Below, piece by piece: positions 14,136 through 64,000 of a stretch of 64,000 bases of DNA (position 1 is its first letter; every line of letters begins with the position of its first letter). Where the stretch lies: the NCBI RefSeq assembly GCF_014489635.1, contig NZ_CP060828.1, positions 1,860,001 through 1,924,000 of the forward strand. Direction: 5' to 3'. Both the position numbers and the translations under genes were made by a program. The stretch comes from Streptomyces roseirectus (lineage in GTDB: Bacteria; Actinomycetota; Actinomycetes; Streptomycetales; Streptomycetaceae). The notes below the pieces were generated by a model that worked only from the letters and a program-made list of their open reading frames with translations, was not told where the DNA came from and ran no database searches.

Positions 14136-14141
14136 TGCCGG

Positions 14142-16849: not shown

Positions 16850-16883
16850 CGCGTGGTTCCTTCGTTACCGCGTACTCCCGCTG

Positions 16884-19006: not shown

Positions 19007-19035
19007 GAGCTGCTCCTTCGACGGGACGTCACAGC

Positions 19036-19051
19036 CTCTACGCCCGTAGAG
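19036..19051. promoter_or_regulatory. Inverted repeat CTCTACGCCCGTAGAG upstream of C-N hydrolase 2
   Basis: Seven-base arms (CTCTACG/CGTAGAG) around CC, 30 bp upstream of the C-N hydrolase 2 start. Position, symmetry and the presence of a PucR gene in the operon make it a candidate operator. The related CTACGCCTGTAG at 7858-7869 upstream of the AhpD-like gene argues against strict pathway specificity. Confidence 0.35.
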
Positions 19052-19214
19052 AGCGGGGTACAGAGGCACGAACGTAAGCCTCAGCGACGCCCTTGCCAAG
19101 ACCACCGCCGTTAACCCGGGGAGTCGATCGCGTTTCACACGCGGGAGGGGGTGGGGCGGGGCTGTTCGGAGTACACCGGGTACTACGGGTATGACAGAGC
19201 CCCGCCCGCCGCCC

Positions 19215-44653: not shown

Positions 44654-45142
44654 ATGTCGGAAAAGACTGTCATCCAGCGTTATCTCACCGCGCTCGGTGA
44701 TCAGGACTGGGCCGCGCTGGAAAAGGTGTACGCCCCGGACGTCACCATGTACGCGCCGACCGCCTGGGGGGTGAAAGGCGTGGAATTCCTGCTGAAATTC
44801 TGCCAGGAGATCCACCGCGCCCACCCCGGAATCCGCGTCGTGCTGCACGACGAGTTCTACAGCGCCGACGGCACCCGGGCGGCCTTCCGGTTCGCGCTGC
44901 ACTGGCACAACACCGGCCCGTACTTCGGGCACGCGGCCACCGGCGAGCGCGGGTCCAGCATCGAGCAGCACACCGTGCGCATCGAGGGCGGGCGGATCGT
45001 CGAGCAGGTCGTCGGGGTGAGCACCCTGGGGCTGCACTTCCTGCAGAAGGAGGCGTGGGGGGTGGCGTACGTGGCGGACGCGGCCGACCCGGCGCCCGAG
45101 ATCGTCTCCGCGCCGCGGGCTGCGGAGGCGGGCCGTCCGTGA
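44654..45142 (+). CDS. Second SnoaL/NTF2-like protein
   Basis: 162 residues: VIQRYLTALGDQDWAALEKV, YAPDVTMYAPTAWGVKGVEF and a C-terminal SSIEQHTVRIEGGRIVEQVV. Same fold class as the 36045-36449 protein but only distantly similar, with about 30 extra C-terminal residues. GAGGAGG lies 5-6 nt before the ATG at 44654. Its stop overlaps the GTG start of the adenylating enzyme gene (GTGA), so the two are translationally coupled and probably act on the same intermediate. Confidence 0.7.
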   Translation: MSEKTVIQRYLTALGDQDWAALEKVYAPDVTMYAPTAWGVKGVEFLLKFCQEIHRAHPGIRVVLHDEFYSADGTRAAFRFALHWHNTGPYFGHAATGERGSSIEQHTVRIEGGRIVEQVVGVSTLGLHFLQKEAWGVAYVADAADPAPEIVSAPRAAEAGRP

Positions 45143-46880: not shown

Positions 46881-47795
46881 ATGGCCGAGGCGACAGCCGT
46901 CTCCGAGCGGTCCGGGACCTCGGATCCGTTCGAGCGGTACCGGCGGCTGATGTTCGGCATCTCGTACCGCATGCTCGGTACCGTCGCCGACGCGGAGGAC
47001 GTCGTCCAGGAGACCTGGCTGCGCTGGCAGCGCGTCGACCGGGACGCCGTCGCCGATCCGCGCGGGTATCTGGTGCGGGCCGTCACCCGTACCGCCATCG
47101 ACCAGATGCGGCGCAGCCGGGCGCGGCGCGAGGAGTACGTGGGGCCCTGGCTGCCGGAGCCGCTGCTGGTCTCGTCCGATGTCGCGCTGGAGTCCTCGCT
47201 GCTCGGGGAGTCGCTGAGCATGGCGGTCCTGGTGATGATGGAGACGTTGTCGCCGCTGGAGCGCGCGGTGTTCGTGCTGCACGAGGTGTTCGGCTTCAGC
47301 TTCCCGGAGGTCGCCGAGGCCGTCGACCGCACCGAGCCGGCGGTGCGGCAGCTCGGCAGCCGGGCCCGGCGCCATGTGCGGCTGCGCCGCCGCCGCTTCG
47401 AACCGGACCGCCGCCAGGCCCGCGAGATCACCGAGCGCTTCCTCGCCGCCTGCCTCGACGGCGACGTGGAAGCGCTCATGGCGGTCCTCGCCCCCGACGT
47501 CACGATGTGGGCCGACGGCAACGGCCACGCCGAAACCCCCCGCGTCCCCCTCCACGGCGCCCCCGCCCTCACCGCCTACTTCGCCTCCACCGCGGGCCGC
47601 TACCCACCCGGCCTGACGGTCCACCTCCACACCCAGCACGACGGCACCCCCGCCGCCGTCCTCACCACCCCGACCGGCGTCTTCGCCGTGGTCATCGCGG
47701 ACATCGCCCTCACCCCCGACGGCCACCCCCACATCACGGCCGTACGCGCGATACGCAACCCGGAGAAGCTGGGGCGGGTGCGGGCGGAGAGCTGA
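46881..47795 (+). CDS. ECF sigma factor with SnoaL-like C-terminal domain (ECF41/SigJ type)
   Basis: About 304 residues. Sigma region 2 (YRRLMFGISYRMLGTVADAE, DVVQETWLRW), region 4 (LSPLERAVFVLHEVFGFSFP, AEAVDRTEPAVRQL) and a C-terminal SnoaL-like domain from about residue 180 (RFLAACLDGDVEALMAVLAP). This is the ECF41/SigJ layout, in which the C-terminal domain controls the sigma factor in place of a separate anti-sigma protein. GGGGAG lies about 5 nt before the ATG at 46881. It follows the ligase gene by 14 bp, so it may be induced with the cluster. Confidence 0.85.
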   Translation: MAEATAVSERSGTSDPFERYRRLMFGISYRMLGTVADAEDVVQETWLRWQRVDRDAVADPRGYLVRAVTRTAIDQMRRSRARREEYVGPWLPEPLLVSSDVALESSLLGESLSMAVLVMMETLSPLERAVFVLHEVFGFSFPEVAEAVDRTEPAVRQLGSRARRHVRLRRRRFEPDRRQAREITERFLAACLDGDVEALMAVLAPDVTMWADGNGHAETPRVPLHGAPALTAYFASTAGRYPPGLTVHLHTQHDGTPAAVLTTPTGVFAVVIADIALTPDGHPHITAVRAIRNPEKLGRVRAES

Positions 47796-50265: not shown

Positions 50266-51483
50266 CTATTCACGCCGCACGGGTTCCGGGGCCGAATTCA
50301 CGTCCCGCTTTGTTCTTCTCCGGACCACCAGGCAGCCCGTTCCGAGGACCAGGCCCCAGAAGGCGGCCCCGAGTCCCAGCAGGGTGATTCCGGAGGCGGT
50401 GGTGAGGAACGCGACGAGGACGGCGGTCCGGTCGCGTGCCTCGGTGAACGCCCCCGACAGGCTCCCGCCGAGGGCGCCGAGCAGGGCGACGCCGGCCGCC
50501 GCCGAGATCAGGGCGGGCGGCAGCGCGGCGAACAGCCCCGCGACCGTCGTCCCGAACAGGCCGACCGCGATGTAGAGCGCTCCACAGCTGATTCCGGCCA
50601 CGTACCGGCGGTCGCGGTCCTCGTGCGCGTCGGGCCCGGCGCAGATCGCGGCGGTGATCGCGCCGAGGTTGAGGGCGTGCGCGCCGAACGGCGCGAAGAG
50701 GGCGGACGCGATGCCTGTGTCCCGTACCAGTGGGCCCGGGGGCACCGTGTACCCGGCCTCCCGGAGCGCCCCGACGCCGGGCGCGTTCTGCGCGGACATG
50801 GTGACCAGGAACAGCGGCAGTGTGAGGCTCACCAGCGCCTGCCCCGGCCAGGCGGGCGCGGTGAACACGGGGGTGGCCGGGGACAGGTGCACGCCGTCCA
50901 GGGTCAGCGTGCCGGTGAGCGCCGCGACCGCCACGGCGGCGGCGAGGGGTGCCGCGATGGCGTACCGGGGGGCCAGTCGCTGGAGGACGACGTACCCCCC
51001 TACCATCACCCCGGCCACGGCGGGGGCGTCTTCGAGCGCCCGGAAGGCGTCCAGGCCGAACCGCAGGAGGATCCCGGCCAGCACGGCGGAGACGACGGCG
51101 GCCGGAACGCGCCGCATCAGCGCGTCGAACCAGCCGGTCACCCCGACGAGGACGGTGAGCGCGGCGGCGGCCAGGTACGCCCCGATCGCCGTCGCGTACG
51201 GGATGTCGTCGAGCTGCGCGACCAGCAGCGCCGCGCCGGGTGTGGACCAGGCCGCCACGACGGGCACGCGGTGGCGCAGGCTGAGCACGAGTCCGGTCAC
51301 GCCGCTGCCCACGGCGATGGCCCAGATCCACGAGGAGAGCCGGTCGTCATCCAGTCCCCCGGCGTGCGCGGCCTGCACCACGAGGGTCAGCGGGCCCGCG
51401 AAGGAGACGACGACGGCGACGGCCCCGGCGACGACCGCGGACAGCGACACGTCGCGCCACAGGCCGCCGGCGGCCCGCGCCAT
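50266..51483 (-). CDS. benE: BenE-family benzoate/H+ transporter
   Basis: 405 residues with about twelve membrane segments. BenE signatures include VVAAWSTPGAALLVAQ, GLFAALPPALISAAAGVALL and LPLFLVTMSAQNAPGVGALR. The family moves benzoate (or similar aromatic acids) across the membrane with protons. Its ATG overlaps the stop of the nucleotide-sugar dehydrogenase gene (ATGA), making it the last gene of the six-gene leftward operon. In this cluster it could import an aromatic acid for the adenylating enzyme or export an aromatic product. Confidence 0.85.
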   Translation of the reverse strand: MARAAGGLWRDVSLSAVVAGAVAVVVSFAGPLTLVVQAAHAGGLDDDRLSSWIWAIAVGSGVTGLVLSLRHRVPVVAAWSTPGAALLVAQLDDIPYATAIGAYLAAAALTVLVGVTGWFDALMRRVPAAVVSAVLAGILLRFGLDAFRALEDAPAVAGVMVGGYVVLQRLAPRYAIAAPLAAAVAVAALTGTLTLDGVHLSPATPVFTAPAWPGQALVSLTLPLFLVTMSAQNAPGVGALREAGYTVPPGPLVRDTGIASALFAPFGAHALNLGAITAAICAGPDAHEDRDRRYVAGISCGALYIAVGLFGTTVAGLFAALPPALISAAAGVALLGALGGSLSGAFTEARDRTAVLVAFLTTASGITLLGLGAAFWGLVLGTGCLVVRRRTKRDVNSAPEPVRRE

Positions 51484-52784
51484 CAGAGGATCTCGACGTT
51501 GGCGGCCGGCCGCAGCCGTCGCCGGCAGTCCAGGACGTGCCGTGCCCCGCGCAGCACGACGTCGTAGTCGAAGTCGTCGTGGTCGGTGAGCAGCACCACC
51601 GCGTCGGCGGCGGCGACCTCGGCCTCGGTCAGTTCCACCCGGCGGACCCGGGCGTCGAGCGGCGCGGTCTCCCGGACGTGCGGGTCGACGGCGTGCACCT
51701 GCGCGCCGGTGCGCAGCAGCAGTTCGGCGACGCGCAGCGCCGGGGACTCGCGGGCGTCACCGCTGTTGCGCTTGTACGCGAGGCCCAGCAGCAGCACCCG
51801 TGAGCCGTTGGCCGGGCGCTGGAGCTGGTTGAGGGCTTCGACGAGGCGTTGGACGACGTAGTGCGGCATCTGGCTGTTGACGTCGTTGGCGAGGTCGACG
51901 AACCGGAAGCGGCGGCCCAGTTGGCGTTCCACCCGCCAGGAGAGGTAGCGCGGGTCGACCGGCAGGCAGTGGCCGCCCACGCCGGGTCCCGGGGTGAAGG
52001 GCATGAAGCCGAACGGTTTGGAGGAGGCCGCGTCGATCGCCTCCCAGGCGTCCACGCCGAGTTCGCGCGCGATCACGGCCATCTCGTTGACCAGCGCGAT
52101 GTTGACGTGCCGGTAGGTGTTCTCCAGGAGCTTGGCGAGTTCGGCGGTCTTCGGGTCCCGGACCGGCACGGTCCGCTCGACCACCGTGCCGTAGAACTCG
52201 CCGACCCGGTCCAGGGAGGCGGCGTCCACCCCGGAGACGATCTTGGGGGTGGTCTCCAGGGTCCAGCGCTGGTTGCCGGGGTCGATGCGTTCGGGGCTGT
52301 AGCCGAGGTGGAAGTCGGTGCCGGGGCGCAGTCCGCTCTCCTTCTCCAGGAGCGCCCCGAACACGTCCTCGGTGGTGCCCGGGTAGGTGGTGGACTCCAG
52401 GACGACCAGCGCGCCGGGCCGCAGGTGCGCGGCCAGCGTGAGCGCGGCGTCCTCGATGCAGGTCAGGTCGGGGACGTCGTCCAGGAGCGGCGTGGGCACG
52501 GTGACGACGGCCACGTCGAAGCCGGCGAGGTCTCCGGCGTCGGTCGTGGGGTGGTAGGCGCCCGACTCCAGGGCCTTGGCCAGCCGGCGTTCGTCCACGT
52601 CCTCCACGTAGGAGTCGCCCGTGCGGAGGCGGGCGATCCGGGCGGCGTCCACGTCGTAGCCCACGACGGTGTGGCCCGCCTCCACCGCCCGGACGGCCAG
52701 CGGCAGGCCCACGTACCCCTGGCCGACCACCGCCACGCGACGGCCCGTGCGCCGGGGGGCGCCGCCGTTCATCGATTGGGACAT
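51483..52784 (-). CDS. UDP-sugar 6-dehydrogenase (WecC/WbpA-like)
   Basis: About 433 residues. The NAD fold opens VAVVGQGYVGLPLAVRAVEA; catalytic Cys273 lies in PGPGVGGHCLPVDPRY; LLGLAYKRNSGDARESPAL and the C-terminal AVVLLTDHDDFDY complete the three-domain UDP-glucose/GDP-mannose dehydrogenase family. It converts a UDP-hexose (UDP-N-acetyl-sugar in the closest groups) to the uronic acid with two NAD+. The ATG at 52784 gives MSQSMNGG; an ATG four codons on is also possible. It lies 11 bp after the UbiA stop and overlaps BenE. It suggests a glucuronic or aminouronic acid unit. Confidence 0.87.
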   Translation of the reverse strand: MSQSMNGGAPRRTGRRVAVVGQGYVGLPLAVRAVEAGHTVVGYDVDAARIARLRTGDSYVEDVDERRLAKALESGAYHPTTDAGDLAGFDVAVVTVPTPLLDDVPDLTCIEDAALTLAAHLRPGALVVLESTTYPGTTEDVFGALLEKESGLRPGTDFHLGYSPERIDPGNQRWTLETTPKIVSGVDAASLDRVGEFYGTVVERTVPVRDPKTAELAKLLENTYRHVNIALVNEMAVIARELGVDAWEAIDAASSKPFGFMPFTPGPGVGGHCLPVDPRYLSWRVERQLGRRFRFVDLANDVNSQMPHYVVQRLVEALNQLQRPANGSRVLLLGLAYKRNSGDARESPALRVAELLLRTGAQVHAVDPHVRETAPLDARVRRVELTEAEVAAADAVVLLTDHDDFDYDVVLRGARHVLDCRRRLRPAANVEIL

Positions 52785-52795
52785 GGTGTGCCCTT

Positions 52796-53752
52796 TCAGC
52801 CGTTGTGCACGAGGACCAGGTTCGCCGCGACCAGGAGGACGACGCCCCAGCGGTGGGTGGTGACGCCTTGCCTGCGGGCCGCCAGCACCTCGCCCGCGAC
52901 GAGCCCGGCGTGCGCCTGGCGGGCGCGCATCGCCACCACGGGCAGCAGAAACGCGCAAAACCACCAGGGCACCGCGCCGACCGCCGCCGCGAGGACGATC
53001 GCGCCGGTCTCGGCGAGCGAGAGCCCGGCGATGAAGCCCCGGTAGACGCCCGGGGGGACGCTCGTGGCCAGGTTGCGGCGGCCGGCCGCCCGGTCGCCGT
53101 CCACGTCGTTGATGTTGGAGTAGACCGAGACCAGCAGGCTCCACAGCCCGAACAGGAAGCACTCCAGCCAGGCCGCGCCGGTCAGCTCGCCGGTCAGCAG
53201 GGCGAAGGGGATCAGCACGCACAGGCCGGTGCTCAGCCAGATGACCGCCTCCTGGCCGCCCCGGTAGCTGAGCTTGAGGCCGTAGGAGTACTGGACGCTG
53301 ATGACCACCGAGAAGCCCGCTGCCGCCAGCGCCCACCAGGGCCGGTGCGGGGCGGCCAGCGCGGTGAGCGCCCACAGCGCGCTGCCCCCGGCGGCGCAGC
53401 CCCAGCCGAAGCGCAGCGCCTGGCGCAGGGTGAGCCGGCCGTCGAGCAGCGGTTTGCGGTCGCGGGCCCGCAGTACCTGGCCCGGGTCGTAGTTGCGGGC
53501 GTCGCTGCCGTCGCGCAGTCCGGTGACGTCGTCCAGGGCGACGGTGGCCGCGACGACGCCGACCCAGCCCGCGTCGAACAGCAGCAGGACCCACCAGGTG
53601 CGCGGTTCCTGCCAGGCGGCGGTGGGCAGCAGGGCGAGGACCACGAAGACGCACAGGTAGTAGTCGAAGAAGGAGAGTTTCGCGAGTTTCGCGTAGGCGC
53701 CCGCGCGTTCCCGTATGCCGGTGCGCGGTGGCGCCGAGGTCGTCGCCGTCAT
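52796..53752 (-). CDS. UbiA-family membrane prenyltransferase
   Basis: 318 residues with about eight to nine membrane segments. The two Asp-rich diphosphate/Mg2+ motifs are DDVTGLRDG at residues 74-82 (first Asp in place of the usual Asn) and NDVDGDRAAGRR in the middle. UbiA enzymes attach a prenyl chain to an aromatic ring or another acceptor in the membrane. The ATG overlaps the stop of the methyltransferase (ATGA). With IspH and a polyprenyl diphosphate synthase on the divergent arm, it is the likely prenyl-transfer step of the cluster. The acceptor is unknown. Confidence 0.87.
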   Translation of the reverse strand: MTATTSAPPRTGIRERAGAYAKLAKLSFFDYYLCVFVVLALLPTAAWQEPRTWWVLLLFDAGWVGVVAATVALDDVTGLRDGSDARNYDPGQVLRARDRKPLLDGRLTLRQALRFGWGCAAGGSALWALTALAAPHRPWWALAAAGFSVVISVQYSYGLKLSYRGGQEAVIWLSTGLCVLIPFALLTGELTGAAWLECFLFGLWSLLVSVYSNINDVDGDRAAGRRNLATSVPPGVYRGFIAGLSLAETGAIVLAAAVGAVPWWFCAFLLPVVAMRARQAHAGLVAGEVLAARRQGVTTHRWGVVLLVAANLVLVHNG

Positions 53753-54564
53753 CGCCGTGGCTCCGCCTCGCCCGGTTTGCGGCCGACCGTGCTGATCAGG
53801 ACCTGGCTCAGCCAGTGGTGGGCCGGGTCGGCCATCTCGGCGAGGGCCGCGTCGATACGGGTGTCGTCAAGGAGGCCGGCGGCCACGATGCGCGGGCGCA
53901 TGTACTCCAGCCACAGCATGTAGTGCCGGGCCTGGTCGGAGCCGCCGCGCACCATCACCGCCCGGCCCTCCGCCGTGGCATCGAGCCCGGCGGCCAGGAC
54001 GAGGCGGAGGTCGGTGTGTCCGCCGCGCGGGTCGTGGCCCGACTCGCGCATCAGCCCGTATCCGGCGGCCCGGACGTCCTGGAGGAAGTCCTCGGACAGG
54101 AAGGAGCGGAAGAGCGTGGAGGAGTCGGTGTCCTCCAGGAACAGCAGCCCGCCGGGCCGCAGCGCGCGCACCATGCGGGCCACGGCGGCATCCCGGTCGG
54201 GCAGGTGCTGGAGCACCATGCGGGAGTGGACGAGGTCGAAGGCGGCCTCCGGCAGCTCCTCCTCCCGCAGGTCGTGCCGGACGACGTCCACCTGCGGCAG
54301 CGCGGCCAGTGCGGCCAGCCGCTCGGTCTGGAGGTCGGTGGCCAGGACCCGGCCCGTGGGGCCGACCCGGTCGGCGAGCCAGCGGGCCACGGAGCCCGAA
54401 CCGGCCCCGATCTCCAGGCAGTTCCAGCCGGGCCCGACGCCCAGCGCGGCCAGCCGCTCCAGGGTGCCCGGGTCCCAGATCGCCTCGTTGGTCCGCAGCC
54501 GCTCGGTCTCCTTCTCCCAGACCGGGTCGAAGACGTACTCCCGCTGCGTCGGTGGACTCGTCAT
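53749..54564 (-). CDS. SAM-dependent methyltransferase (class I)
   Basis: About 271 residues. SAM motif CLEIGAGSGSVARWLADR, post-motifs VLATDLQTERLAAL, FDLVHSRMVLQHLPDRDAAV and LRPGGLLFLEDTDSS. The TRP-like C-terminal part is not diagnostic, so O-, N- or C-methylation is possible. AGGGAG lies 6 nt before the ATG at 54564; an ATG at 54597, overlapping the DegT stop as ATGA, gives 11 more residues. Its stop overlaps the UbiA start (ATGA), so it is translationally tied to prenylation. Confidence 0.8.
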   Translation of the reverse strand: MTSPPTQREYVFDPVWEKETERLRTNEAIWDPGTLERLAALGVGPGWNCLEIGAGSGSVARWLADRVGPTGRVLATDLQTERLAALAALPQVDVVRHDLREEELPEAAFDLVHSRMVLQHLPDRDAAVARMVRALRPGGLLFLEDTDSSTLFRSFLSEDFLQDVRAAGYGLMRESGHDPRGGHTDLRLVLAAGLDATAEGRAVMVRGGSDQARHYMLWLEYMRPRIVAAGLLDDTRIDAALAEMADPAHHWLSQVLISTVGRKPGEAEPRR

Positions 54565-54593
54565 GGGGGTCTCCCTGGTCTGTGCGCGCGTGC

Positions 54594-55712
54594 TCATGCG
54601 TAGAACTCGCAGACCGTGTCGGCGATGAACTCCACCTCGGCATCGGTCAGATGGGGCCAGATCGGGATGGCGAGGTTGCGCTCGGAGGCCCGCTCGGCGT
54701 TCGGCCAGCTGCCGTCCGGGGCGGCCCACGGCGCGAAGGCGGGCTGCCGGGGCAGCGGCACGGGGTAGTAGATGTGGCTGCCGATCTGCCGTTCCGTGAG
54801 ATAGGCGCGCAGGTCCTCGCGGCGGTCGACGAGCAGCGAGTAGACGTAGTAGCAGCGGCCGTTGCGGCCGGCCGGCGGGGCGAGCACCCCGCGTTCGCGC
54901 AGCGGCTCGAAGCGCTCGGTGTAGTAGTCGGCGATCCGCGCGCGGCGCTCCAGCCGGTCCGGGAAGCCGGCCAGCCGGTGCAGCTGGAAGGCGGCCAGCA
55001 CCTCGTCGAACCGGTTGTTCTGGCCGATGCGGTGGTGCAGGAAGCGGTGCACGCCGTCCTGTCCGTGGTTGCGCAGCATGCGGGCGGCGCGGGCCAGTTC
55101 GGGGTCGTCGGTGAGGACCACCCCGCCCTCGCCCGCCGTGCCGAACGCCTTGACCTGGAAGAAGGAGAACACGCCGACGTCGCCCCAGCGGCCGGCGGGC
55201 CGGCCGTCCAGGACGGAGCCCTGGGCGACGGCGGCGTCCTCGATCAGCGCGAGCCCGTGCTCGCGGGCGATCTCGCCCAGCCGCTCCATGTCCGCCATGA
55301 TCGAGAAGACGTGGGCCGGCATCAGCGCCTTGGTGCGTTCGGTGATCAGCGACTTCGTCGCGTCGGGGTCCAGGACCATGGTCCAGGGGTCGACGTCGGC
55401 GAAGACCGGGGTGGCCCCCGCGTTGGCCACCGAACTCGCCACCGGCTGGCAGCAGAAGGCCGGCACGATCACCTCGTCGCCCGGACCGATGTCCAGCGCG
55501 CGCACGGACAGCTCCAGCGCCCCGGTCCCGCTGGCGCAGGCGACGACATGGCCGGCGCCGGTCATCTCGCGCAGCGCCTCCTCCAGCTCGGCGGTGCGCT
55601 CCCCGAGGATGAACCGCTGGCCGGTGCCGGTGCCCAGGTCGCGGACGGCCGACAGCAGCGCCTCGCGGTCCTCCTCGAAGAGGTCGGGCGGGAAGAAGGG
55701 CAGGGTCCTCAT
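54594..55712 (-). CDS. DegT/DnrJ/EryC1-family aminotransferase 1
   Basis: About 372 residues. The PLP Lys is Lys188 in FSFFQVKAFGTAGEGG; DEVIVPAFCCQPVASSV and ADVDPWTMVLDP are family landmarks. These enzymes aminate keto-sugars or keto-cyclitols, or make 3-amino-5-hydroxybenzoate. It overlaps its paralogue upstream (55709-56914) by ATGA and precedes the methyltransferase gene. The two DegT proteins differ in the substrate loop (PTPLHLQPC versus PVPLPRQPA), so they probably act on different ketones or positions. Confidence 0.87.
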   Translation of the reverse strand: MRTLPFFPPDLFEEDREALLSAVRDLGTGTGQRFILGERTAELEEALREMTGAGHVVACASGTGALELSVRALDIGPGDEVIVPAFCCQPVASSVANAGATPVFADVDPWTMVLDPDATKSLITERTKALMPAHVFSIMADMERLGEIAREHGLALIEDAAVAQGSVLDGRPAGRWGDVGVFSFFQVKAFGTAGEGGVVLTDDPELARAARMLRNHGQDGVHRFLHHRIGQNNRFDEVLAAFQLHRLAGFPDRLERRARIADYYTERFEPLRERGVLAPPAGRNGRCYYVYSLLVDRREDLRAYLTERQIGSHIYYPVPLPRQPAFAPWAAPDGSWPNAERASERNLAIPIWPHLTDAEVEFIADTVCEFYA

Positions 55713-56914
55713 GACGCGCTCCCCGTGTAGAAGCGGCGGACGGCCTCGCACACCCGGTGCACGTCGTCGAGGCCGAGGTCGGGGTGGAAGGGGAGCGCGA
55801 CGGTGCGCTCGCAGGCGGCCTCCGCGTGCGGGAAGTCGCCCCGGCGGTGGCCGAGTCCGGCGAAGCAGGGCTGGAGGTGCAGCGGCGTCGGGTAGTAGAC
55901 CTCGGTGCCGATGCCCTCGCGGGTGAGGTGCGCGACCAGGTCGTCGCGCCGCTCGGCCTCGATGACGTACACGTAGAACACCGGCTCCTGCGGCACGTCC
56001 CGCACGGCCACCGTGGGCAGCCGCAGGACGCCCGGCACGTCGCTCAGCAGCTCGGTGTAGGCCGCCGCCAGCTCCGCGCGCCGGGCGATCGCCGCGTCCA
56101 GCCGGGGCAGCTTGCCGAGCAGGACGGACGCCTGGATGTCGTCCATCTTGCTGTTGGTGCCGGAGACGCCCGAGAGGTTGGAAATACCGGCGATGTGGTC
56201 CACCGTGCGGCCCATCCGGCCGTGGTGGCGCAGGATCGCCACCCGTTCCGCGATCTCCGGGTCGTCCGTCAGGACGGCTCCGGCGTCGCCGAGGGCGCCG
56301 AGGGTCTTGGTGGGGAAGAACGACAGCACGCCGCCGTCGCCCAGGAGCCCGGCGTGGACGCCGGCGCGGCGCATGCCGATCGCCTCCGCGCTGTCCTCCA
56401 CGACCTTCAGCCCGTGCCGGCCGGCCAGGGCGCCGAGCGCCCCCATGTCCGCGAGCTGGCAGAACAGGTGCACCGGCATGATCGCCCGGGTGCGCGGTGT
56501 GAGGACCGCCTCGACGGACGCCGGGTCCAGCGAGTAGGTCACGGGGTCGATGTCGGCGAACACCGGCGTGGCACGGGCCAGCGCCACCGAGGAGGCCGAG
56601 GCGACGAAGCTGAAGGCGGGCACGACGACCTCGTCACCGGGGCCGACGCCGCAGGCGCGCAGCAGCAGGACGAGCGCGTCCGTCCCGCTGTTCACCGCCA
56701 CCGCGTGCCGGGCCCCGGTGTATTCGGCGAGCGCCTTCTCCAGTTCGGCGACCTGCCGGCCGTGGGAATACTTTCCGCGGTCGAACATCTCGTTGAGATG
56801 CCGCTCGATGTCCGGCCAGCAGTCGGTGAAGGTGTCGGCCTGAGTGAAGAACGGAACCGGGTGTTCGGTTTCCGGTTCGCTGTTTCGATCGGTGCTCCGG
56901 GTGGGGGAGATCAC
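55709..56914 (-). CDS. DegT/DnrJ/EryC1-family aminotransferase 2
   Basis: About 401 residues. PLP Lys203 in FFPTKTLGALGDAGAV, the NSGTDALVLLL segment and PVHLFCQLADMGAL mark a sugar or cyclitol aminotransferase similar to WbpE/DesV-type enzymes. The GTG at 56914 has GGAGG 7 nt upstream and is much better than an in-frame ATG 38 codons earlier, which would add unrelated residues. It is the first gene of the leftward operon, facing the ispH promoter across 257 bp. Confidence 0.88.
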   Translation of the reverse strand: MISPTRSTDRNSEPETEHPVPFFTQADTFTDCWPDIERHLNEMFDRGKYSHGRQVAELEKALAEYTGARHAVAVNSGTDALVLLLRACGVGPGDEVVVPAFSFVASASSVALARATPVFADIDPVTYSLDPASVEAVLTPRTRAIMPVHLFCQLADMGALGALAGRHGLKVVEDSAEAIGMRRAGVHAGLLGDGGVLSFFPTKTLGALGDAGAVLTDDPEIAERVAILRHHGRMGRTVDHIAGISNLSGVSGTNSKMDDIQASVLLGKLPRLDAAIARRAELAAAYTELLSDVPGVLRLPTVAVRDVPQEPVFYVYVIEAERRDDLVAHLTREGIGTEVYYPTPLHLQPCFAGLGHRRGDFPHAEAACERTVALPFHPDLGLDDVHRVCEAVRRFYTGSAS

Positions 56915-57125
56915 GCGTAATCCTCCGTGGACCGGGCGGAGACAGGGATGTGCGCAGCTAAGCCGCTCGTTTTCGCGACGGCAATGGCAAACCCTTGTCA
57001 GCACCGGGCGCGGGGGGCTGGCAAACATCAGTCATACCGGGGCTGGGGAGCGGAGAACGCGCAGGTCAAAGGGGTTCATGAGCGGCTTGAGCCGGCCTCG
57101 CCCGCGCCCTGCGGGGGTTCGGCGC

Positions 57126-57154
57126 TTGACACATCGACCCGTTCACCGCAGGTT
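57126..57154 (+). promoter_or_regulatory. Candidate sigma-70 promoter of the ispH operon
   Basis: TTGACA (57126-57131), a 17-bp spacer and CAGGTT (57149-57154) precede the ispH start by only 17 bp, implying a leader of about 10 nt. The -35 is perfect and the -10 is fair. The remaining divergent gap (56915-57125) shows no clear counterpart for the leftward operon. Confidence 0.5.
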
Positions 57155-57171
57155 TTCTGTGTCCGAAGCGG

Positions 57172-58185
57172 GTGACAGAGGATGTGCTCTCCTTGAAATC
57201 GCTGGACCATTTCGAAAAGCCGGAAATCCGGGAAGATTCGACGGAACCGCGCGGAAAAACCGTGATCCTCGCCGAGCCCCGCAGTTTCTGCGCCGGCGTG
57301 CAGCGGGCCATCGACATCGTCGAGGCGGCGCTGGAACGCTTCGGCCCTCCCGTCTACGTACGCAAACAGATCGTGCACAACGAACACGTGGTGCGTGACC
57401 TGGAGACCCGGGGCGCGCGGTTCGTGGACTCCGAGGAGGAGGTGCCGGTCGGCGCGGTCTGTGTCTTCTCCGCCCACGGCGTCTCCCCCGCCGTGCGCCG
57501 GGGCGCCGCCGGCCGGGACCTCCGGGTGATCGACGCCACCTGCCCGCTCGTGTCCAAGGTGCACCAGGAGTCCCGGCGGTTCGCCGAGGAGCGGCGCACG
57601 ATCCTCCTCATCGGCCACGCCGAGCACGAGGAGGTCGAGGGCACCTACGGCGAGGCACCCGAGCGCACCCTCGTCGTCGGCACGGTCGAGGAGGTGCGCG
57701 CGCTGGACCTGCCCCGTGACGCGCCCGTCGCCTACCTCACGCAGACCACCCTCGCCCTGGACGAGACCAGGGAGATCATCGAGGCGATGGAGGAACGGTT
57801 CGACGATCTGCGCGGGCCGGGCAGTGACGACATCTGCTACGCCAGCCAGAACCGCCAGAACGCGGTCAAGGCCGTCGCCGCCCGTACCGGTCTGGTGCTC
57901 GTCGTCGGCTCCACGAACTCCAGCAACTCGGTGCGCATGGTGGAGGTCGCCCGCGACGCCGGCACCCCCGCCCACCTCGTCCCCGGTCCGGACGACCTCG
58001 ACGAACGCTGGCTCGCCGGGGTGGACGCGGTCGGCGTCAGCGCCGGCGCCAGCGCCCCCGGCGCCCTCGTCGACGCCCTGCTGCGCCGGCTCGCCGCGCT
58101 CGGCTACGCCACGGTCGAGGTCGAGCAAACCGCCACCGAGGACATCGTGTTCGGACTGCCGTCCCAGCTGAAAGGCACCGCATGA
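57172..58185 (+). CDS. ispH: 4-Hydroxy-3-methylbut-2-enyl diphosphate reductase
   Basis: About 337 residues; the last enzyme of the MEP pathway, making IPP and DMAPP with a 4Fe-4S cluster. Three cluster Cys are present (Cys40 in RSFCAGVQRA, Cys124 in IDATCPLVSK, Cys222 in DDICYASQNRQ), as are the catalytic Glu in EVEGTYGEAP and the His of VHNEHVV and FSAHGVSP. It starts at a GTG (57172). Its stop overlaps the polyprenyl synthase start (ATGA). A copy in the cluster probably raises prenyl supply; none of the earlier MEP genes is in the window. Confidence 0.92.
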   Translation: MTEDVLSLKSLDHFEKPEIREDSTEPRGKTVILAEPRSFCAGVQRAIDIVEAALERFGPPVYVRKQIVHNEHVVRDLETRGARFVDSEEEVPVGAVCVFSAHGVSPAVRRGAAGRDLRVIDATCPLVSKVHQESRRFAEERRTILLIGHAEHEEVEGTYGEAPERTLVVGTVEEVRALDLPRDAPVAYLTQTTLALDETREIIEAMEERFDDLRGPGSDDICYASQNRQNAVKAVAARTGLVLVVGSTNSSNSVRMVEVARDAGTPAHLVPGPDDLDERWLAGVDAVGVSAGASAPGALVDALLRRLAALGYATVEVEQTATEDIVFGLPSQLKGTA

Positions 58186-59213
58186 GCGACGACGACGTCC
58201 TCACCCGGTCGCTGGAGGCCGTGCGGCGGCGCCTCCACTCGGTCCTCGGCGAGGAGAGCGCGCGGTGGAACGCCGTCGACCCGCGCTGTGCCGCGTTCGT
58301 CGACACCGTCACCGCCATCACCACCGCCAAGGGCAAGCTGCTGCGCCCCCGGTTCTGTCTCCTCGGGCACCTCGCCGCCGGGGGCGACCCCGCCGACGAG
58401 CGGGCCGTGGACGCGGCCGCCGCCCTCGAACTCCTGCACAGCTTCGCCCTGTTGCGCGACGACGTCCTCGACGACTCCCCGCTGCGGCGCGGCGCGGTCA
58501 CGGCCCACGAGCGGCACGCCGAGGACCACCGGGCGCGGCTGCTGCGCGGGGAGCCCCGCCGGTACGGGGAGGGCGTCGCCAACCTCGCCGCCGACCTCGC
58601 GCACGTCTACGCCGACCGGCTCACCCGGGCCCTGCCCGAGGAGGCGCGGGCGGTGTGGGACGAGACCAGGGTCGAGGTCACCGTCGGCCAGTACCTGGAC
58701 ATCGCCGTGGCCGCCGAGGGGGTGGCCGACCCGGAGCTGTCCCGCTGGATCGCGGTCTGCAAGTCGGGCCGCTACACCATCCACCGTCCCCTCCAGCTCG
58801 GTGCCGTGCTCGCGGGCAGGCCCGACCTCGCCGGGGTGTTCGAGGGGTACGGGCTGCCGCTGGGCGAGGCGTTCCAGCTGCGGGACGACCTCATCGACGC
58901 CTTCGGGGACTCCGAGGACACCGGCAAGCCGGCCGGTCTCGACTTCGACCGGTTCAAGATGAGCTACCTGCTCAGTCTCTCCGTCCGCCGCGACGGGCGG
59001 ATCCGGGAACTCGCCGCCGCGCCTACGGGGCCGGGCGGCGCGGCCAGGATGCGCGGGCTGCTCGTGGAGACCGGCGTCGCGGACGAGGTCGAGCAGCGCA
59101 TCGCCGCTCTCGTCCAGCAGGCCCGCCGGGCCGTGGCCGACGCTCCCCTGGTGCCCCGGTGGCGCACCGAGCTGATGGACCTCACCGCACGCGTGGCGTA
59201 CCGGGACCGCTGA
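58182..59213 (+). CDS. Short-chain polyprenyl (C15-C20) diphosphate synthase
   Basis: About 343 residues. First Asp-rich motif DDVLDD at residues 93-98, second DDLIDAFGD from 235, and GKLLRPRF as the IPP-binding Lys-Arg region. Phe88, five residues before the first motif, is bulky and usually limits the chain to FPP or GGPP; this is a rule of thumb, not proof. Coupled to ispH by ATGA, and 16 bp before the Gfo/Idh gene. It should provide the allylic donor for the UbiA prenyltransferase. Confidence 0.88.
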   Translation: MSDDDVLTRSLEAVRRRLHSVLGEESARWNAVDPRCAAFVDTVTAITTAKGKLLRPRFCLLGHLAAGGDPADERAVDAAAALELLHSFALLRDDVLDDSPLRRGAVTAHERHAEDHRARLLRGEPRRYGEGVANLAADLAHVYADRLTRALPEEARAVWDETRVEVTVGQYLDIAVAAEGVADPELSRWIAVCKSGRYTIHRPLQLGAVLAGRPDLAGVFEGYGLPLGEAFQLRDDLIDAFGDSEDTGKPAGLDFDRFKMSYLLSLSVRRDGRIRELAAAPTGPGGAARMRGLLVETGVADEVEQRIAALVQQARRAVADAPLVPRWRTELMDLTARVAYRDR

Positions 59214-59229
59214 GAGGAGCCGTACCGGC

Positions 59230-60291
59230 ATGGAACGGACACTGATCATCGGGCTCGGACGGGCGGGCCTGGGCCTGCACTGGGCGGTCCTGCGCAGGCT
59301 GCGCGCCGAAGGGCGCCACCCGGACCTCTTCGACCCCGCCCCCGTCCTGGCCCTCGACCCCCTCGCCCCCGGGGCGCCCCTGCCGGTGTCGGCGGCCGAG
59401 GAGCTGCGCCCGGTCTCCTCGGTCGCCGAGGCCCGTGCGCTGCTGGATCCCGAGCGGACCGTCGTGCACCTGTGCACCCCGCCCGTGGCGCGTCTTGGCC
59501 CGCTGCGGGAGCTGGCGGCGGCCGGGTTCCGCCGGGTCGTCGTCGAGAAGCCTCTCGCGGTCGAGCGCCTGGCCGTCCACGACATCCTCGACCTCGGCCG
59601 TGCCGAGCGGCTGCGCATGGCGGTCGTCGCGCCGTGGCTGGCGAGTTCGCTGACGGCGCGGCTCGCCCGGCTGGTCGAGGAGGGCACACTCGGTGAGCTG
59701 CGCAGCGTCGACGTGCTGCAGAGCAAGCCGCGCATGAGCCGCACCCTGGCCGACGGCGGGCATCCCACCGCGTTCGACGTCGAGCCGCCGCACTCCCTCG
59801 GTGTCTGTCTGCGGCTCGCCGGGGACGCGGTCCTCGCCGGTGCCGAACTCGCCGACATGCGCGTCGGTGACACGGTCGTGCCCGGCATGGGCCGCGCCGA
59901 GCTGGTCCTGCGGCACCGGGAGGCCACCAGCCGGATCGTCTCCGACCTCACCTCCCCCGTCCGCGAGCGCCGCATCCGGCTGGGGTTCACCGACGGCACG
60001 GCGGTCGCGCACTACCCGGGCTCCGAGGACGACCACTACGCGCAACTGCGGTTCAGCCGCACCGGCCGGCCGGAGACCTGGGAGGTCTTCCCCGACGACG
60101 CGCTGTCCGCGTACTTCGTCGACACCTACCGCGCCCTGCGCGACGGCACCGACCTGGAACCGGACCTGCGCCTCGCCTCCCGCGTGGTGGAACTCCTCGC
60201 CGACGCCAAGGAGACGAGCCGCCGGCCCGGCCCGGCAGACGGGCGGGTGCCCACCGGGCACCCGGGACGGCGGGTGAGCCATGCGGGGTGA
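59230..60291 (+). CDS. Gfo/Idh/MocA-family oxidoreductase
   Basis: About 353 residues. Rossmann motif [26 protein letters not shown], the catalytic Lys-Pro in [12 protein letters not shown] and the C-terminal beta sheet with [14 protein letters not shown] (putative catalytic His). The family oxidises or reduces sugars, cyclitols and uronic acids at C2 or C3 with NAD(P). The last 25 residues ([20 protein letters not shown]) are low-complexity. It overlaps the start of the heptad/TIM-barrel gene by 11 bp. Together with the DegT enzymes it could produce the keto group that is aminated. Confidence 0.83.
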
Positions 60292-61639
60292 CACCGAAGC
60301 CGTGCGGGCCGATACCGAGGCCGTGCGGGCCGACGCCCGAGCCGTGCGGACCGACGCCGGAGCCGTGCGGGCCGACACCGAAGCCGTGCAGGCCGACACC
60401 GGAACCAAGCGGGCCGACACCGAAGCCGTGCAGACCGACACCACAGCCAAGCGGACCGACACCGAAGCCGTGCGGGCCGACACCGAAGCCGTGCAGACCG
60501 ACACCACAGCCAAGCGGACCGACGCCCGAGCCATGCGGGCCGACATCGGAGCCGTGCGGACCGACGCCGGAGCCGTGCGGGCCGACACCGAAGCCGTGCA
60601 GACCGACACCACAGCCATGCGGGCCGACGCCCGAGCCATGCGGGCCGACACCGAGGCCGTGCAGGCCGACACCGAAGCCGTGCAGACCGACACCACAGCC
60701 AAGCGGGCCGACGCCGAGACCATGCGCGCCGACACCGCGCCCCGGCACACCCCCGCCGCGTCCCGCCTCCACCCCCCGCCCGGCATCCGCTTCGCCGGTA
60801 TCGGCGACGAGGCCGCCCCCGGCCTCGCCGGGCAGGTTCGGGCCCACCAGTTGCTGGGCTGGTCCGCCATAGAGCTGCGCGACGTCGACGGCACAGCCCT
60901 CGCCGACCTCGACGACGCCGCCTTCGAGCGGGTGGCCGGGACGCTGGCCGGGGCGGGGTTGGACGTCGTGTGCGTGGACTCCCGCATCGCCAACTGGGCC
61001 CGCCCCGTCACCGGTGACTTCGAGCTGGACCGGGGCGAGCTGGAGCGCCTGGCCCCGAGGTGCGCCGCGCTCGGCACCCGCCACATCCGCGTGATGTCCT
61101 ACCCGAACGACCCCGACGCCCCGCTCGACGAGCCGGAGTGGGCCCGCGAGGTCATCGCCCGGATGCGGCGTCTCGCCCGGCAGGCGGAGGACGCCGGGCT
61201 CGTCCTGCTGCACGAGAACTGCGCGGGCTGGGCCGGCGCCGACGCGGCCCGCGCGCTGCGCCTGCTGGCCGAGGTCGACAGCCCGGCGCTGCGGCTGGTG
61301 TTCGACACCGGCAACGGGGTGGCGTACGGCTACGAGGCGTACGACCTGCTCACGGAACTCGTCGCGTGGGTGGACCACGTCCAGGTCAAGGACGCCCGCG
61401 CCGAGGCCGGCGAGGCGGTCTACACCCTGCCCGGCGAGGGGAGTTGCCGGGTCGCCGACTGTCTGCGGCTGCTGCTCGACCACGGCTACACCGGCACCTG
61501 GTCCATCGAACCGCACCGGACGGTCCGCCCCCACGAGGGCCTGGCGGACGCCGGACAGGACGGTGTCGCCGAGTTCGTCCGGTACGGCCGCGCCCTGGAG
61601 GCGCTGGCCGCCGGGCTGAGCGGGGAGGGCGCGCGATGA
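60281..61639 (+). CDS. Sugar phosphate isomerase/epimerase-type TIM barrel with 21-heptad N-terminal repeat
   Basis: About 452 residues as read. Residues 4-150 are 21 tandem heptads (consensus [21 protein letters not shown]). The TIM barrel begins near residue 165 ([20 protein letters not shown]) and has the AP-endonuclease-2-type ligands: Glu in [11 protein letters not shown], Asp in [10 protein letters not shown], His/Asp in VDHVQVKDA and Glu in WSIEPHRTV. Family members of about 280 residues lack any such N-terminus. Metal-dependent keto-aldo isomerase or epimerase of sugars or cyclitols is likely. Translation could instead start at the ATG at 60722 with the repeats as leader. Its stop overlaps the M20 start (ATGA). 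Confidence 0.8.
60290..60730 (+). repeat. Minisatellite of 21 units of 21 bp at the Gfo/Idh-TIM barrel junction
   Basis: Twenty-one copies of a 21-bp unit (consensus GACACCGAAGCCGTGCAGGC plus C) tile 60290-60730; a 22nd is degenerate. The pair of units [14 protein letters not shown] recurs four times, showing that blocks were duplicated. Because the unit is a multiple of three, all six frames stay open: minus strand gives Gly-Val-Gly-X-His-Gly-Phe/Ser, plus frame 2 gives Thr-Pro-X-Pro-Cys-Gly-Pro. Base changes in the heptad frame fall mainly at first and second codon positions, which argues against strong selection on that protein sequence. Confidence 0.93.
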
Positions 61640-62934
61640 AGGACGCCCGCTTGAGTCCCGGTGACCGGGAACTGCTGCTGCGCCTGCTGGAACTGCCCAC
61701 CGCGGGCCCGCTGGAGGGTGAGGGGGAGCCCCGGCTGTGGGAGGCCCAGCGCGCCTACGCCGACGCCGCGCGCGGGCTGGGCTTCGAGGTCGCGCACCAC
61801 GCCGCCGCCGATCCGGCGGAGCTGACGGACGACCAGGTGCCGCTCGCCGTGCGCCGGGCCGTCGCGGAGGACCCCGGTTTCCTCGCCGTCCAGCCCTCGC
61901 TGGTGCTGGCGCTCGGTCCGGCGCTGCCGCAGGCGGACACGGTGATGTTCAACGTGCACCTCGACACCGTCGCGGGCCTGGAGCCGGCCGGGTTCGACGG
62001 GGAGCGGTTCACCGGGCGCGGGGCGATCGACGCCAAGGGTCCGGCCGTGGCGCTGCTGGCGGGGGTGCGCGCGGCGCTCGACGCCGTCCCCGGGCTGGCC
62101 GACGGCACCCGGGTACTGGTGCAGGCCGTGTCCGGTGAGGAGGGCGGTGCCCTGGGCGTGTTCGGCACCCGTCCGCTGATCCGGCGCGGCTGGTACGGCC
62201 GGCTCAACCTGTTCTGCGAGCCCACCGGGATGCGGCTGCTGCCGCGCGCGACCGCCGCGATGACCGCGTGCGTGCGGGTCGACGGCGACGACGCCATCGA
62301 CGACCGTCCCGCCGCCGGGCACAACGCGACCGTCCTGCTCGGTCACCTCGCGCAGCGGCTCGCGGCCCGGCTCCCGGAGCGGGCGGGCGGCGGCCAGGTC
62401 TGTGTCGCCGGGCTGCACACCGGCCACCTCCACAACCGGGTGTACGGCACCGGTCGGCTGCTGCTCAACTGCTCCTACCCGGACTCCGCCGCGGGCCGCG
62501 CCCTGGCCGGCCACCTGGAGCGCGAGGTCGCCGAGGGGCTGCGGGAGTTCACCGAGACCTACCGCGCCCACCGGGACCTGGCCCGCACCGCCAGGGACGC
62601 CGCCGCGATCACCCGCGTCGAGTGGCACAAGCGCGGCCTGCCCGCGCTCGCGCCCGCCGACGACCCCTGGGCCGTCGATCTGCTGGAGCGCGGCGGGCTC
62701 GCCCGGTGGCCCGCCGACGAGCCCGCCTTCACCTGCGACGCGCTGTGGGCGGCCGGTCTGCCGGGCGCCTACACCGCCGTCCTCGGGCCCGGCGACCTCG
62801 GCCGCAATCACGCGCACGCGGCGGGGGAGTTCGCCGACCTGTCCGATCTCGAAGCCTTCGCCGGGGCGGTGAGCGGGATCCTCGTCCGCTTCGCCGCCCG
62901 GCACCACGCCGCCACGGGAGGAACACGACAGTGA
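61636..62934 (+). CDS. M20-family metallopeptidase/deacylase (ArgE/DapE/ACY1)
   Basis: About 432 residues. Zinc ligands His108 and Asp110 (NVHLDTV), Asp132 (GRGAIDAKGPA), Glu168/169 (SGEEGG), the later Glu of FCEPTG and the C-terminal His of NHAHAAGEFADLSD match dinuclear M20 enzymes, which remove acyl groups from N-acyl amino acids or amino sugars. In this operon an N-deacetylase role on an amino-sugar or aminocyclitol intermediate is plausible. The central dimerisation domain is present. It overlaps both neighbours (ATGA at its start, GTGA at its end). Confidence 0.85.
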   Translation: MKDARLSPGDRELLLRLLELPTAGPLEGEGEPRLWEAQRAYADAARGLGFEVAHHAAADPAELTDDQVPLAVRRAVAEDPGFLAVQPSLVLALGPALPQADTVMFNVHLDTVAGLEPAGFDGERFTGRGAIDAKGPAVALLAGVRAALDAVPGLADGTRVLVQAVSGEEGGALGVFGTRPLIRRGWYGRLNLFCEPTGMRLLPRATAAMTACVRVDGDDAIDDRPAAGHNATVLLGHLAQRLAARLPERAGGGQVCVAGLHTGHLHNRVYGTGRLLLNCSYPDSAAGRALAGHLEREVAEGLREFTETYRAHRDLARTARDAAAITRVEWHKRGLPALAPADDPWAVDLLERGGLARWPADEPAFTCDALWAAGLPGAYTAVLGPGDLGRNHAHAAGEFADLSDLEAFAGAVSGILVRFAARHHAATGGTRQ

Positions 62935-64000
62935 CCCAGTCGACCGACGCCCCGCCGCACGACGGGGTGACCGTCTCCCACGACGCCCTCGTGGCCTTCA
63001 CCGCCGAGGTCTTCGCCGACCGCGGGGTGCCGGAGGCGCGGGCCCGCACCGCCGCCGAGGCCCTGGTCCACGGCGACCTGACCGGGATCGCCTCGCACGG
63101 GCTCGCCAACCTGACGCGGCTGTACCTGCCGGCCCTCGACGCGGGCCGCATCGACGCCGCCGCCGAGCCGGAGAAGGTCACCGACACCGGCGCCGCCGTC
63201 CTGCTCGACGGGCGCCGCTCGCTGGGCCTGTGGGCGGCGACGGAGGCGCTGGAGCTGGCCGCCGACCGCGCGCGGGAGACCGGCGTCGCCCTGGTGACGA
63301 TGCGCGACGCGACCCACTTCGGGTGCGCCGGGTACCACACGGCCCGGATCGCCCGGCGCGGCATGGTCGCGTTCCTGGCCGCCAACTGCGGCCGTCAGCG
63401 CATCGCCCGTCCGCCGGGCGGCCGGGCGGCGATGCTCGGCACGAACCCGTTCAGTGTCGCCGCGCCGGCCGGCGACCGGCCGCCGTACGTGCTGGACATG
63501 AGCACCACCGTGGTGCCGACCGGCCGGGTGCGGGCCGCCGCCCGCGCCGGGGAGCCGATCCCGGAGGGCTGGCTGGAGGACGCCGAGGGCCGCCCGGTGA
63601 CCGACCCGCTGGCCCTGGACGCCGGTGAGGGCTTCCTGCGCTGGCTCGGCGGCGACCCCGCCACCGGCGCCTTCAAGGGCTACGGGCTCGGTCTGATGGT
63701 GGAGGTGCTGGCCGCGCTGGTGCCCGGCGCCGGCCTCGGCCCCGCCCCGGAGGCCCTGACCGGCGACGGCCGGCCCACCGGCCGGGACGACGACATCGGC
63801 CTCACCGCCCTCGTCCTGGCCCCGGGCGCCCTGCGCCGCGAGCGGGACTTCCGTGCCGAGGCCGACGGGCTCTTCGGCGCGCTCCTCGACTGCCCGCCCC
63901 TCGACCCCGCCCGCCCGGTCAGCTACCCCGGCCGTCCCGAGGAGCTGACCGCCGCGCACCGCCGGCGGCACGGCGTCCCGCTGTCCGCCGAACGCCACGC
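62931..64000 (+). CDS. Ldh-family (malate/L-lactate/ureidoglycolate type) dehydrogenase, cut by window edge
   Basis: At least 356 residues, no stop before the window end. The GTG at 62931 overlaps the M20 stop. Signatures of the non-Rossmann Ldh family: LVHGDLTGIASHGLANLTRL, RDATHFGCAGYHTARIARRG, MLGTNPFSVAAPAG and KGYGLGLMVEVLAALVPG. Members oxidise or reduce 2-hydroxy acids or sugar acids such as malate, ureidoglycolate or 2,3-diketogulonate with NAD(P). Here it probably acts on a uronic acid or cyclitol-derived keto acid. Full length in the family is about 340-360, so only a few residues should be missing. Confidence 0.85.
   Translation, partial: MTQSTDAPPHDGVTVSHDALVAFTAEVFADRGVPEARARTAAEALVHGDLTGIASHGLANLTRLYLPALDAGRIDAAAEPEKVTDTGAAVLLDGRRSLGLWAATEALELAADRARETGVALVTMRDATHFGCAGYHTARIARRGMVAFLAANCGRQRIARPPGGRAAMLGTNPFSVAAPAGDRPPYVLDMSTTVVPTGRVRAAARAGEPIPEGWLEDAEGRPVTDPLALDAGEGFLRWLGGDPATGAFKGYGLGLMVEVLAALVPGAGLGPAPEALTGDGRPTGRDDDIGLTALVLAPGALRRERDFRAEADGLFGALLDCPPLDPARPVSYPGRPEELTAAHRRRHGVPLSAERH

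Follow-up and report, generated by a model that had tools for sequence, protein, structure and literature searches.

A 24-gene cluster of Streptomyces roseirectus that combines prenylation and amino-sugar-acid-type genes

The stretch analysed here, called the window, comprises 64,000 nucleotides of the Streptomyces roseirectus genome (positions 1,860,001-1,924,000 of NZ_CP060828.1; 9.95 Mb in a single contig). Genes were called in the window and in 20 kb of flank on either side, and all positions are given in window coordinates. The subject is a unit of 24 called genes that runs from about 43,084 to 71,529. A preliminary description of positions 50266..64000 had placed six leftward and six rightward genes there, and all twelve were recovered in the layout and families described; the two divergent operons do belong to one unit. 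The 257-bp gap reported between them is exact, given GTG starts at 56914 and 57172. Nearly all junctions were said to be 4-base overlaps; such overlaps are real, but are found at only six of the ten junctions.

The leftward operon, all on the reverse strand, encodes DegT aminotransferase a (55709..56914, PF01041, E 5e-115), DegT aminotransferase b (54594..55712, PF01041, E 9e-96), the S-adenosylmethionine-dependent methyltransferase MT1 (53749..54597, PF08241, E 7e-18), a UbiA-family prenyltransferase (52796..53752, PF01040, E 5e-20), a uridine diphosphate (UDP)-sugar 6-dehydrogenase (51483..52784, TIGR03026 above cut-off) and a BenE-type membrane transporter (50266..51483, TIGR00843 above cut-off, PF03594 E 3e-132). 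Facing it on the forward strand are IspH (LytB; 57172..58185, TIGR00216 above cut-off), a polyprenyl diphosphate synthase of C15-C20 type by similarity (58182..59213, PF00348, E 6e-38), a Gfo/Idh-fold oxidoreductase (Gfo1, 59230..60291), a TIM-barrel sugar isomerase/dehydratase (60281..61639, PF01261, E 8e-28), an M20-family amidohydrolase (61636..62934, PF01546, E 2e-12) and an Ldh2-family oxidoreductase identified by family searches (62931..64061, the window ending at 64000). The rightward operon runs on past the window with a second Gfo/Idh oxidoreductase (Gfo2, 64058-64987), a DUF6917 protein (64984-65430), DXS (65433-67343), IspG (67343-68500), an alpha/beta hydrolase (68536-69471), a flavin monooxygenase of the MonCI/LasC epoxidase type (69503-70879) and the UbiE-like methyltransferase MT2 (70876-71529). 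On the left, the unit adds four forward genes, for a major facilitator superfamily (MFS) drug-efflux transporter of the EmrB/DHA2 type at its edge (43084..44604, TIGR00711, E 4e-88), a SnoaL/NTF2-like protein (44654..45142, SnoaL_2, E 6e-14), an acyl-CoA/AMP ligase (45139..46866, nearest to cyclohexanecarboxylate-CoA ligase but under the cut-off of that family) and a SigJ-type sigma factor assigned by family searches (46881..47795), together with a LuxR-family regulator on the reverse strand (47811..50117, GerE, E 4e-14). These family-level assignments are firm.

The unit was compared with five relatives, Streptomyces phaeofaciens, strain NRRL WC-3618, Streptomyces sp. B93, S. atriruber and S. 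canus. In the first four, gene order is kept from the MFS exporter (43084) to the last methyltransferase (71529), with a rearrangement on the left side in S. atriruber; S. canus holds many of the genes, split in two blocks. Within the 40 kb read, the units of B93 and S. atriruber lack IspH, DXS and IspG. The exporter, the SnoaL-like protein (55-92% identity) and the sigma factor accompany the unit in those same four genomes, the exporter not being seen in 60 kb of S. canus, while homologues of the acyl ligase (37-92%) and of the LuxR regulator (36-89%) are present in all five. Because they are kept beside the unit in this way, the five left-hand genes are counted as members. Acyl ligase homologues also adjoin the core in related loci designated L015, L017, L018 and L019, and a Streptomyces plasmid carries unit genes in two blocks with acyl ligase (37%) and LuxR (35%) homologues alongside. 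Gene content, order, conservation and enzyme families can thus be read directly from the DNA: the cluster is real and larger than first noted. The preliminary description knew of no described cluster with this combination, and none was found in the open-licence literature searched. It had also proposed looking for glycosyltransferases beyond 64000. None was found up to 71529, nor does any of the 24 genes match a glycosyltransferase family in Pfam or NCBIfam (the exporter by NCBIfam only).

Several enzymes of the sugar core have amino-sugar or uronic-acid enzymes among their closest relatives. The UDP-sugar dehydrogenase is nearest to UDP-N-acetylhexosamine (UDP-HexNAc) dehydrogenases, its best PDB relative being 4r16, annotated as a UDP-N-acetylmannosaminuronic acid (UDP-ManNAcA) dehydrogenase (E 4e-76). 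Both DegT enzymes are nearest to sugar aminotransferases, with WbpE the best PDB relative of DegT b (E 4e-63) and second to the transaminase 2oga for DegT a (E 1e-71 and 2e-78, respectively). The nearest PDB relative of Gfo2 is 3q2k, titled as WlbA with UDP-GlcNAcA (the uronic acid of UDP-N-acetylglucosamine). Gfo1 matched no Pfam family at E 0.001, GFO_IDH_MocA included, and because Pfam is blind to it, its membership rests on the clear Gfo/Idh fold of its predicted structure and on the alignment of its family profile to that of Gfo2; in Foldseek, KijD10 and GnnA ranked first. Relatives of the 6-dehydrogenase, 3-dehydrogenase and 3-aminotransferase of the Wbp-type UDP-2,3-diamino-uronate pathway are therefore all present together. 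At the level of equivalog models (UDP-ManNAc/GlcNAc dehydrogenase, UDP-GlcNAc 3-dehydrogenase, PseC-type) all scores were under cut-off, and only the subfamily model TIGR03026 passed.

Across 19 aligned members of the TIM-barrel family, E312, D342, H366 and E410 are invariant, which we take to be the metal site known from epimerases and IolE. In the PDB, D-tagatose 3-epimerases were the only relatives that came up (E 2e-5). The TIM barrel is fused to M20 in a seven-member family (one member read) and, by Pfam, in locus L113, while DUF6917 is fused to Gfo2 in L113 (by Pfam) and in L112, L114 and L115 (by matches within one open frame). Such fusions suggest that the steps concerned are tied together. 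DUF6917 was also considered as the small subunit of a C-glycoside deglycosidase, on the assumption that DgpA/B/C-type enzymes combine a Gfo/Idh protein, a TIM barrel and a small beta subunit; it gave no significant fold match to known small subunits, and that reading is not used here. At the start of the TIM-barrel gene lies a 21-bp tandem repeat of 22 copies (60277-60737), which encodes about 147 extra residues of heptad-like repeats. The N-terminal region consequently measures 172 residues, versus 25-44 in five relatives examined. Either the repeat is private to this strain among those relatives or the true start of the gene is internal.

The prenyl part of the unit pairs UbiA with a dedicated polyprenyl synthase, the combination that marks UbiA-type meroterpenoid clusters, with both PF01040 and PF00348 above cut-off. 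The Asp-rich motifs of UbiA are conserved across 19 aligned members. UbiA enzymes prenylate aromatic rings, hydroxyls and carboxylates. The additional DXS, IspG and IspH genes look like precursor supply. Residues 2-451 of the epoxidase align to MonCI (23zv, E 5e-87), and its homology to structurally solved members is full-length, which suggests that the prenyl chain is oxidised. A PADLOC search of MT1 gave an uninformative match to mad2 over the methyltransferase stretch.

The core comprises two Gfo/Idh proteins, two DegT proteins, the TIM barrel, M20, Ldh2 and DUF6917, often with the UDP-sugar dehydrogenase. A scan of named genomes with Gfo1 gave 116 relatives, from which 79 distinct loci were kept. 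The core is widespread in many actinobacterial genera, mostly with this UbiA: 67 of the 79 loci combine Gfo1, TIM barrel, M20, Ldh2 and Gfo2, and UbiA lies in the same locus in 52 of those 67. Whole genomes were searched for 12 of the other 15 loci (L014, L015 and L017 being outside the search), and each contained UbiA (E 1.1e-59 or better), several times adjoining the locus by coordinates. Nine loci do not have TIM barrel and M20 together; L042, L046 and L057 among them were searched, giving no UbiA match in two and a weak one (E 3e-4) in the third, and UbiA is present in others of this group. Within the genus, DUF6917 was found in 34 of 295 genomes, and in 1 of 396 genomes sampled from the phylum as a whole, that one being the genome of the window itself. 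A co-occurrence sample of 53 genomes of the genus (33 DUF6917 holders besides the genome under study and 20 listed non-holders) contained UbiA in 26 of 33 holders and M20 in 30 of 33, and neither in any of the 20 non-holders. No core was seen at L116 and L117, which come from DUF6917 holders without a UbiA or M20 match. This distribution is patchy and cluster-like. As a separate observation, an EF-hand protein family accompanies the core in 45 of the 79 loci, and a family of small, apparently secreted proteins in 36 (L030 and others).

The core is also found with other partners. On a Rhizobium plasmid (L091), Gfo1, DegT, DegT, TIM barrel, M20, Ldh2 and Gfo2 stand in a row at best identities of 32-48%, next to genes annotated as EctB, L-histidine N-alpha-methyltransferase, MFS and ATP-grasp. 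Four divergent cores (L112 to L115) come from DUF6917 holders that have no UbiA. Of these, L112 and L115 carry DegT, DegT, TIM barrel, M20, Ldh2 and Gfo2-DUF6917 among trp genes, with a B3/4-domain protein and a PaaK/BagE-like ligase; the trp genes of L115 are, by NCBIfam, trpD, C, B and A, a trpE/pabB-type and a trpG-type gene. These two are possibly a cluster type of their own. In L114, Gfo1, DegT, a weak second DegT, TIM barrel, M20 and Gfo2-DUF6917 occur with a UDP-sugar dehydrogenase, two ATP-grasp L-amino-acid ligases, a FemAB-like protein and an enolase-superfamily gene, and L113 is similar, with a GNAT-like protein in place of the ligases. Domain searches were made on chosen genes of L113, L114 and L115; the names of the L112 trp genes and of the L114 enolase and MFS genes rest on translation similarity. 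Partners such as these (ligases and FemAB-like protein, trp genes, EctB with ATP-grasp) would suit an aminated or amino-acid-like building block.

Taken together, the unit can tentatively be read as a single secondary-metabolite cluster, about 24 genes in size (43.1-71.5 kb), that makes a compound of the geranylgeranylated amino-sugar-acid type, a reading to which we give slightly less than even confidence. We infer that the core acts as a cassette supplying a building block of the aminated hexuronate type, which in this cluster would be coupled to a geranylgeranyl chain before that chain undergoes epoxidation and methylation. The UDP-sugar dehydrogenase would oxidise C6 of a UDP-hexose, probably UDP-HexNAc, after which the two Gfo/Idh enzymes would produce keto sugars for the two DegT enzymes to aminate. 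Isomerisation, removal of the acyl group and redox adjustment by the TIM barrel, M20, Ldh2 and DUF6917 may then yield a free (di)amino sugar acid. What the comparisons suggest for the UDP-sugar dehydrogenase, DegT, both Gfo/Idh enzymes, M20 and the TIM barrel fits an aminated, deacylated sugar acid. As the 24 genes have no glycosyltransferase match, the unit's sugar is not obviously a nucleoside-diphosphate-sugar donor, and UbiA or the acyl ligase would have to make the link. Geranylgeranyl diphosphate would come from the polyprenyl synthase, its supply boosted by the extra DXS, IspG and IspH, and UbiA would attach it to a carbon, hydroxyl or carboxylate of the sugar unit or of an acid joined by the acyl ligase. 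The MonCI/LasC-type flavoenzyme would epoxidise the chain, the SnoaL-like protein or the hydrolase would open the epoxide, and MT1 and MT2 would methylate; the MFS and BenE proteins may serve in transport and the LuxR protein and sigma factor in regulation. A wider claim, which we regard as doubtful, is that the core makes the free aminated sugar acid as an exchangeable block, which UbiA would join to terpenes and ATP-grasp enzymes to amino acids, and which in other genomes goes with trp genes. In that case the UbiA acceptor would be sugar-derived and non-aromatic, and the products would be sugar-terpene compounds made without a glycosyltransferase.

Several observations weigh against this amino-sugar-acid reading. 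The characterised relatives of UbiA are only remote, M20 is weakly similar to N-acyl amino-acid deacylases and falls below every curated cut-off, and VIA left the Gfo1 neighbours unseparated, the top rows being tied with inositol and other sugar dehydrogenases among them. Epoxide opening by the SnoaL-like protein is suggested purely by analogy with the polyether epoxide-opening enzymes that its fold recalls. One locus (L059) has UbiA next to Gfo1 but no other core genes, and 7 of the 33 DUF6917 holders lack this UbiA, four of them having a divergent core and three (G487, G631 and G698) no M20 match. In the 20 kb read, the divergent cores are incomplete: L112 and L115 lack Gfo1, L113 and L114 lack Ldh2, and L112 also lacks a UDP-sugar dehydrogenase. 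Moreover, the UDP-sugar dehydrogenase is present in only 40 of the 79 fetched loci, many of which are cut by flank or contig ends, and the 31 kb read from Rhizobium gave no match to it, to DUF6917 or to UbiA; a start from a non-nucleotide sugar or a cyclitol is therefore possible.

The preliminary description had predicted a prenylated core joined to either a deacetylated amino-uronic acid or an aminocyclitol. The amino-uronic acid agrees with what the UDP-sugar dehydrogenase, Gfo/Idh and DegT enzymes most closely resemble, and the aminocyclitol is retained as a lower-rated rival. In its broader form this rival, which we consider unlikely, has the core turning inositol or a sugar into an enolisable (amino)cyclohexanedione or aminophenol, which would undergo C-prenylation by UbiA in the manner of quinone and meroterpenoid pathways. 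Gfo/Idh would then be an inositol dehydrogenase and the TIM barrel an IolE-like dehydratase. In keeping with this, the TIM barrel matches the myo-inosose-2 dehydratase IolE best in NCBIfam (E 6e-9, which is under the cut-off), although it matches D-tagatose 3-epimerases as well; Gfo2 also matches IolG, one PDB relative of DegT is a glutamine--scyllo-inositol transaminase, and scyllo-inositol dehydrogenases are among the fold neighbours of Gfo1. Aromatic rings are the usual substrates of UbiA enzymes and of UbiE-like methyltransferases, and a flavin amine-oxidase-like gene that accompanies UbiA in relatives could aromatise the ring. However, the same 40 of 79 loci, and three of the four divergent cores, do have a UDP-sugar dehydrogenase, and the amino-acid ligase and FemAB-like partners are more in line with an amino or amino-acid unit. 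As another possibility, the product may be a cell-envelope lipid with a polyprenyl-linked amino sugar and not a secreted compound, but this seems improbable. The nearest pathway parts, which are WbpA/B/E-like, serve surface polysaccharides, the core occurs in many actinobacterial genera and a gene next to the plasmid copy is annotated as an MMPL-family transporter, but an envelope role agrees poorly with the patchy occurrence of DUF6917 and the lack of a glycosyltransferase match, and the epoxidase, acyl ligase, LuxR regulator and EmrB-type efflux belong typically to secondary metabolism.

It had also been suggested that the unit might work with the neighbouring terphenyl locus to give a hybrid product or, failing that, that two clusters abut. 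The terphenyl A-T-TE protein is present at 32327-35077, with a prephenate dehydratase and an O-methyltransferase. That the prenyl/amino-sugar unit decorates a terphenyl made by this protein is very improbable in our judgement, even though Streptomyces terphenyls with uronic-acid-like sugars exist and the two loci adjoin in the same order in S. phaeofaciens and NRRL WC-3618 (in S. graminilatus each lies on a separate contig). The unit persists, wholly or for the greater part, in B93, S. atriruber and S. canus, whose genomes have no close terphenyl synthetase (29-33% identity). In the genus sample, in which up to 17 synthetase candidates were scored per genome, a terphenyl synthetase of at least 65% identity was found in 5 of 33 DUF6917 holders and also in 2 of 20 non-holders. 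It was adjacent to DUF6917 in none of the five, being 94-96 kb away in G563 and G447, megabases away in G473 and G518 and on another contig in G500; the G518 synthetase is in two pieces and the G447 match spans residues 271-915. Two further holders, G487 and G660, gave only 41-43% matches, over the first part of the protein. A terphenyl synthetase is thus not linked to the unit wherever the unit occurs. Because relatives carry the unit without a close synthetase and the two are non-adjacent in the genus sample, two abutting clusters are favoured over a hybrid, although they adjoin in two close relatives. Most likely the loci are independent and abut in one sub-clade, within which the two clusters may cooperate.

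Partial likenesses to known systems are evident. WbpA/WbpB/WbpE and GnnA/GnnB belong to pathways of the UDP-2,3-diamino-hexuronate type. Like them, the unit holds a UDP-HexNAc-type 6-dehydrogenase, a WlbA/GnnA-like Gfo/Idh protein and a WbpE-like DegT protein in one cluster; unlike them, it has doubled Gfo/Idh and DegT genes and adds TIM barrel, M20, Ldh2, DUF6917 and UbiA, with no glycosyltransferase match. A diamino ring could arise from two dehydrogenase/DegT pairs, as in aminocyclitol antibiotic clusters of the spectinomycin and kanamycin type, yet none of the 24 genes matches an inosose synthase, an inositol phosphatase or a glycosyltransferase, and the unit has the UDP-sugar dehydrogenase and UbiA instead. 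With the MonCI/LasC polyether systems the unit shares a related flavin monooxygenase and a SnoaL-fold protein, but there is no polyketide synthase among the 24 genes and the likely substrate is a prenyl chain. Nearest in outline is the zigralone (zig) cluster, which has in common with the unit a polyprenyl synthase, a UbiA-like prenyltransferase, an aminotransferase, two methyltransferases and an epoxidised prenyl chain (PMC13307353). The zig pathway starts from tryptophan and uses P450s, a thiamine diphosphate enzyme and a Pyr4-like cyclase, none of which was identified in the unit, and as described it contains no amino-sugar core (PMC13307353). As to the cyclase, family searches of the 24 genes named no Pyr4-like membrane protein, no search aimed at such cyclases having been made.

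DUF6917 occurs in about one in nine of the genomes sampled in the genus, and the core in many other actinobacterial genera; no paper naming DUF6917 was found in the open-licence literature. Were the amino-sugar-acid reading true, sugar and isoprenoid chemistry would be linked without a glycosyltransferase and a domain of unknown function would gain a function. DUF6917, M20 and UbiA would then offer a search handle for a large set of cryptic clusters, including the variants with amino-acid ligases and tryptophan genes.

The divergent promoter region (56915..57171) contains two copies of TGGCAAAC-N4-GTCA, at 56985 and 57019 (56985-57034), and L011, L012 and L013 each retain a single exact copy. 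Exact copies in the window and fetched loci are confined to this promoter and its close relatives; with two mismatches the count in the window is 2, not above chance (shuffle mean 2.26). The repeats are a possible operator. The sigma factor (46881-47795) has a SnoaL-like C-terminal domain, and a separate SnoaL protein is located nearby at 44654. Finally, an ebo-type metabolite-traffic operon (EboE and EboA-domain models above NCBIfam cut-offs), together with a UbiA gene, occupies the left edge of the window, from -6342 to 22 (13658-20000 of the left flank, L008, plus the first bases of the window), and a further UbiA gene is located about 8 kb to the left of that operon.

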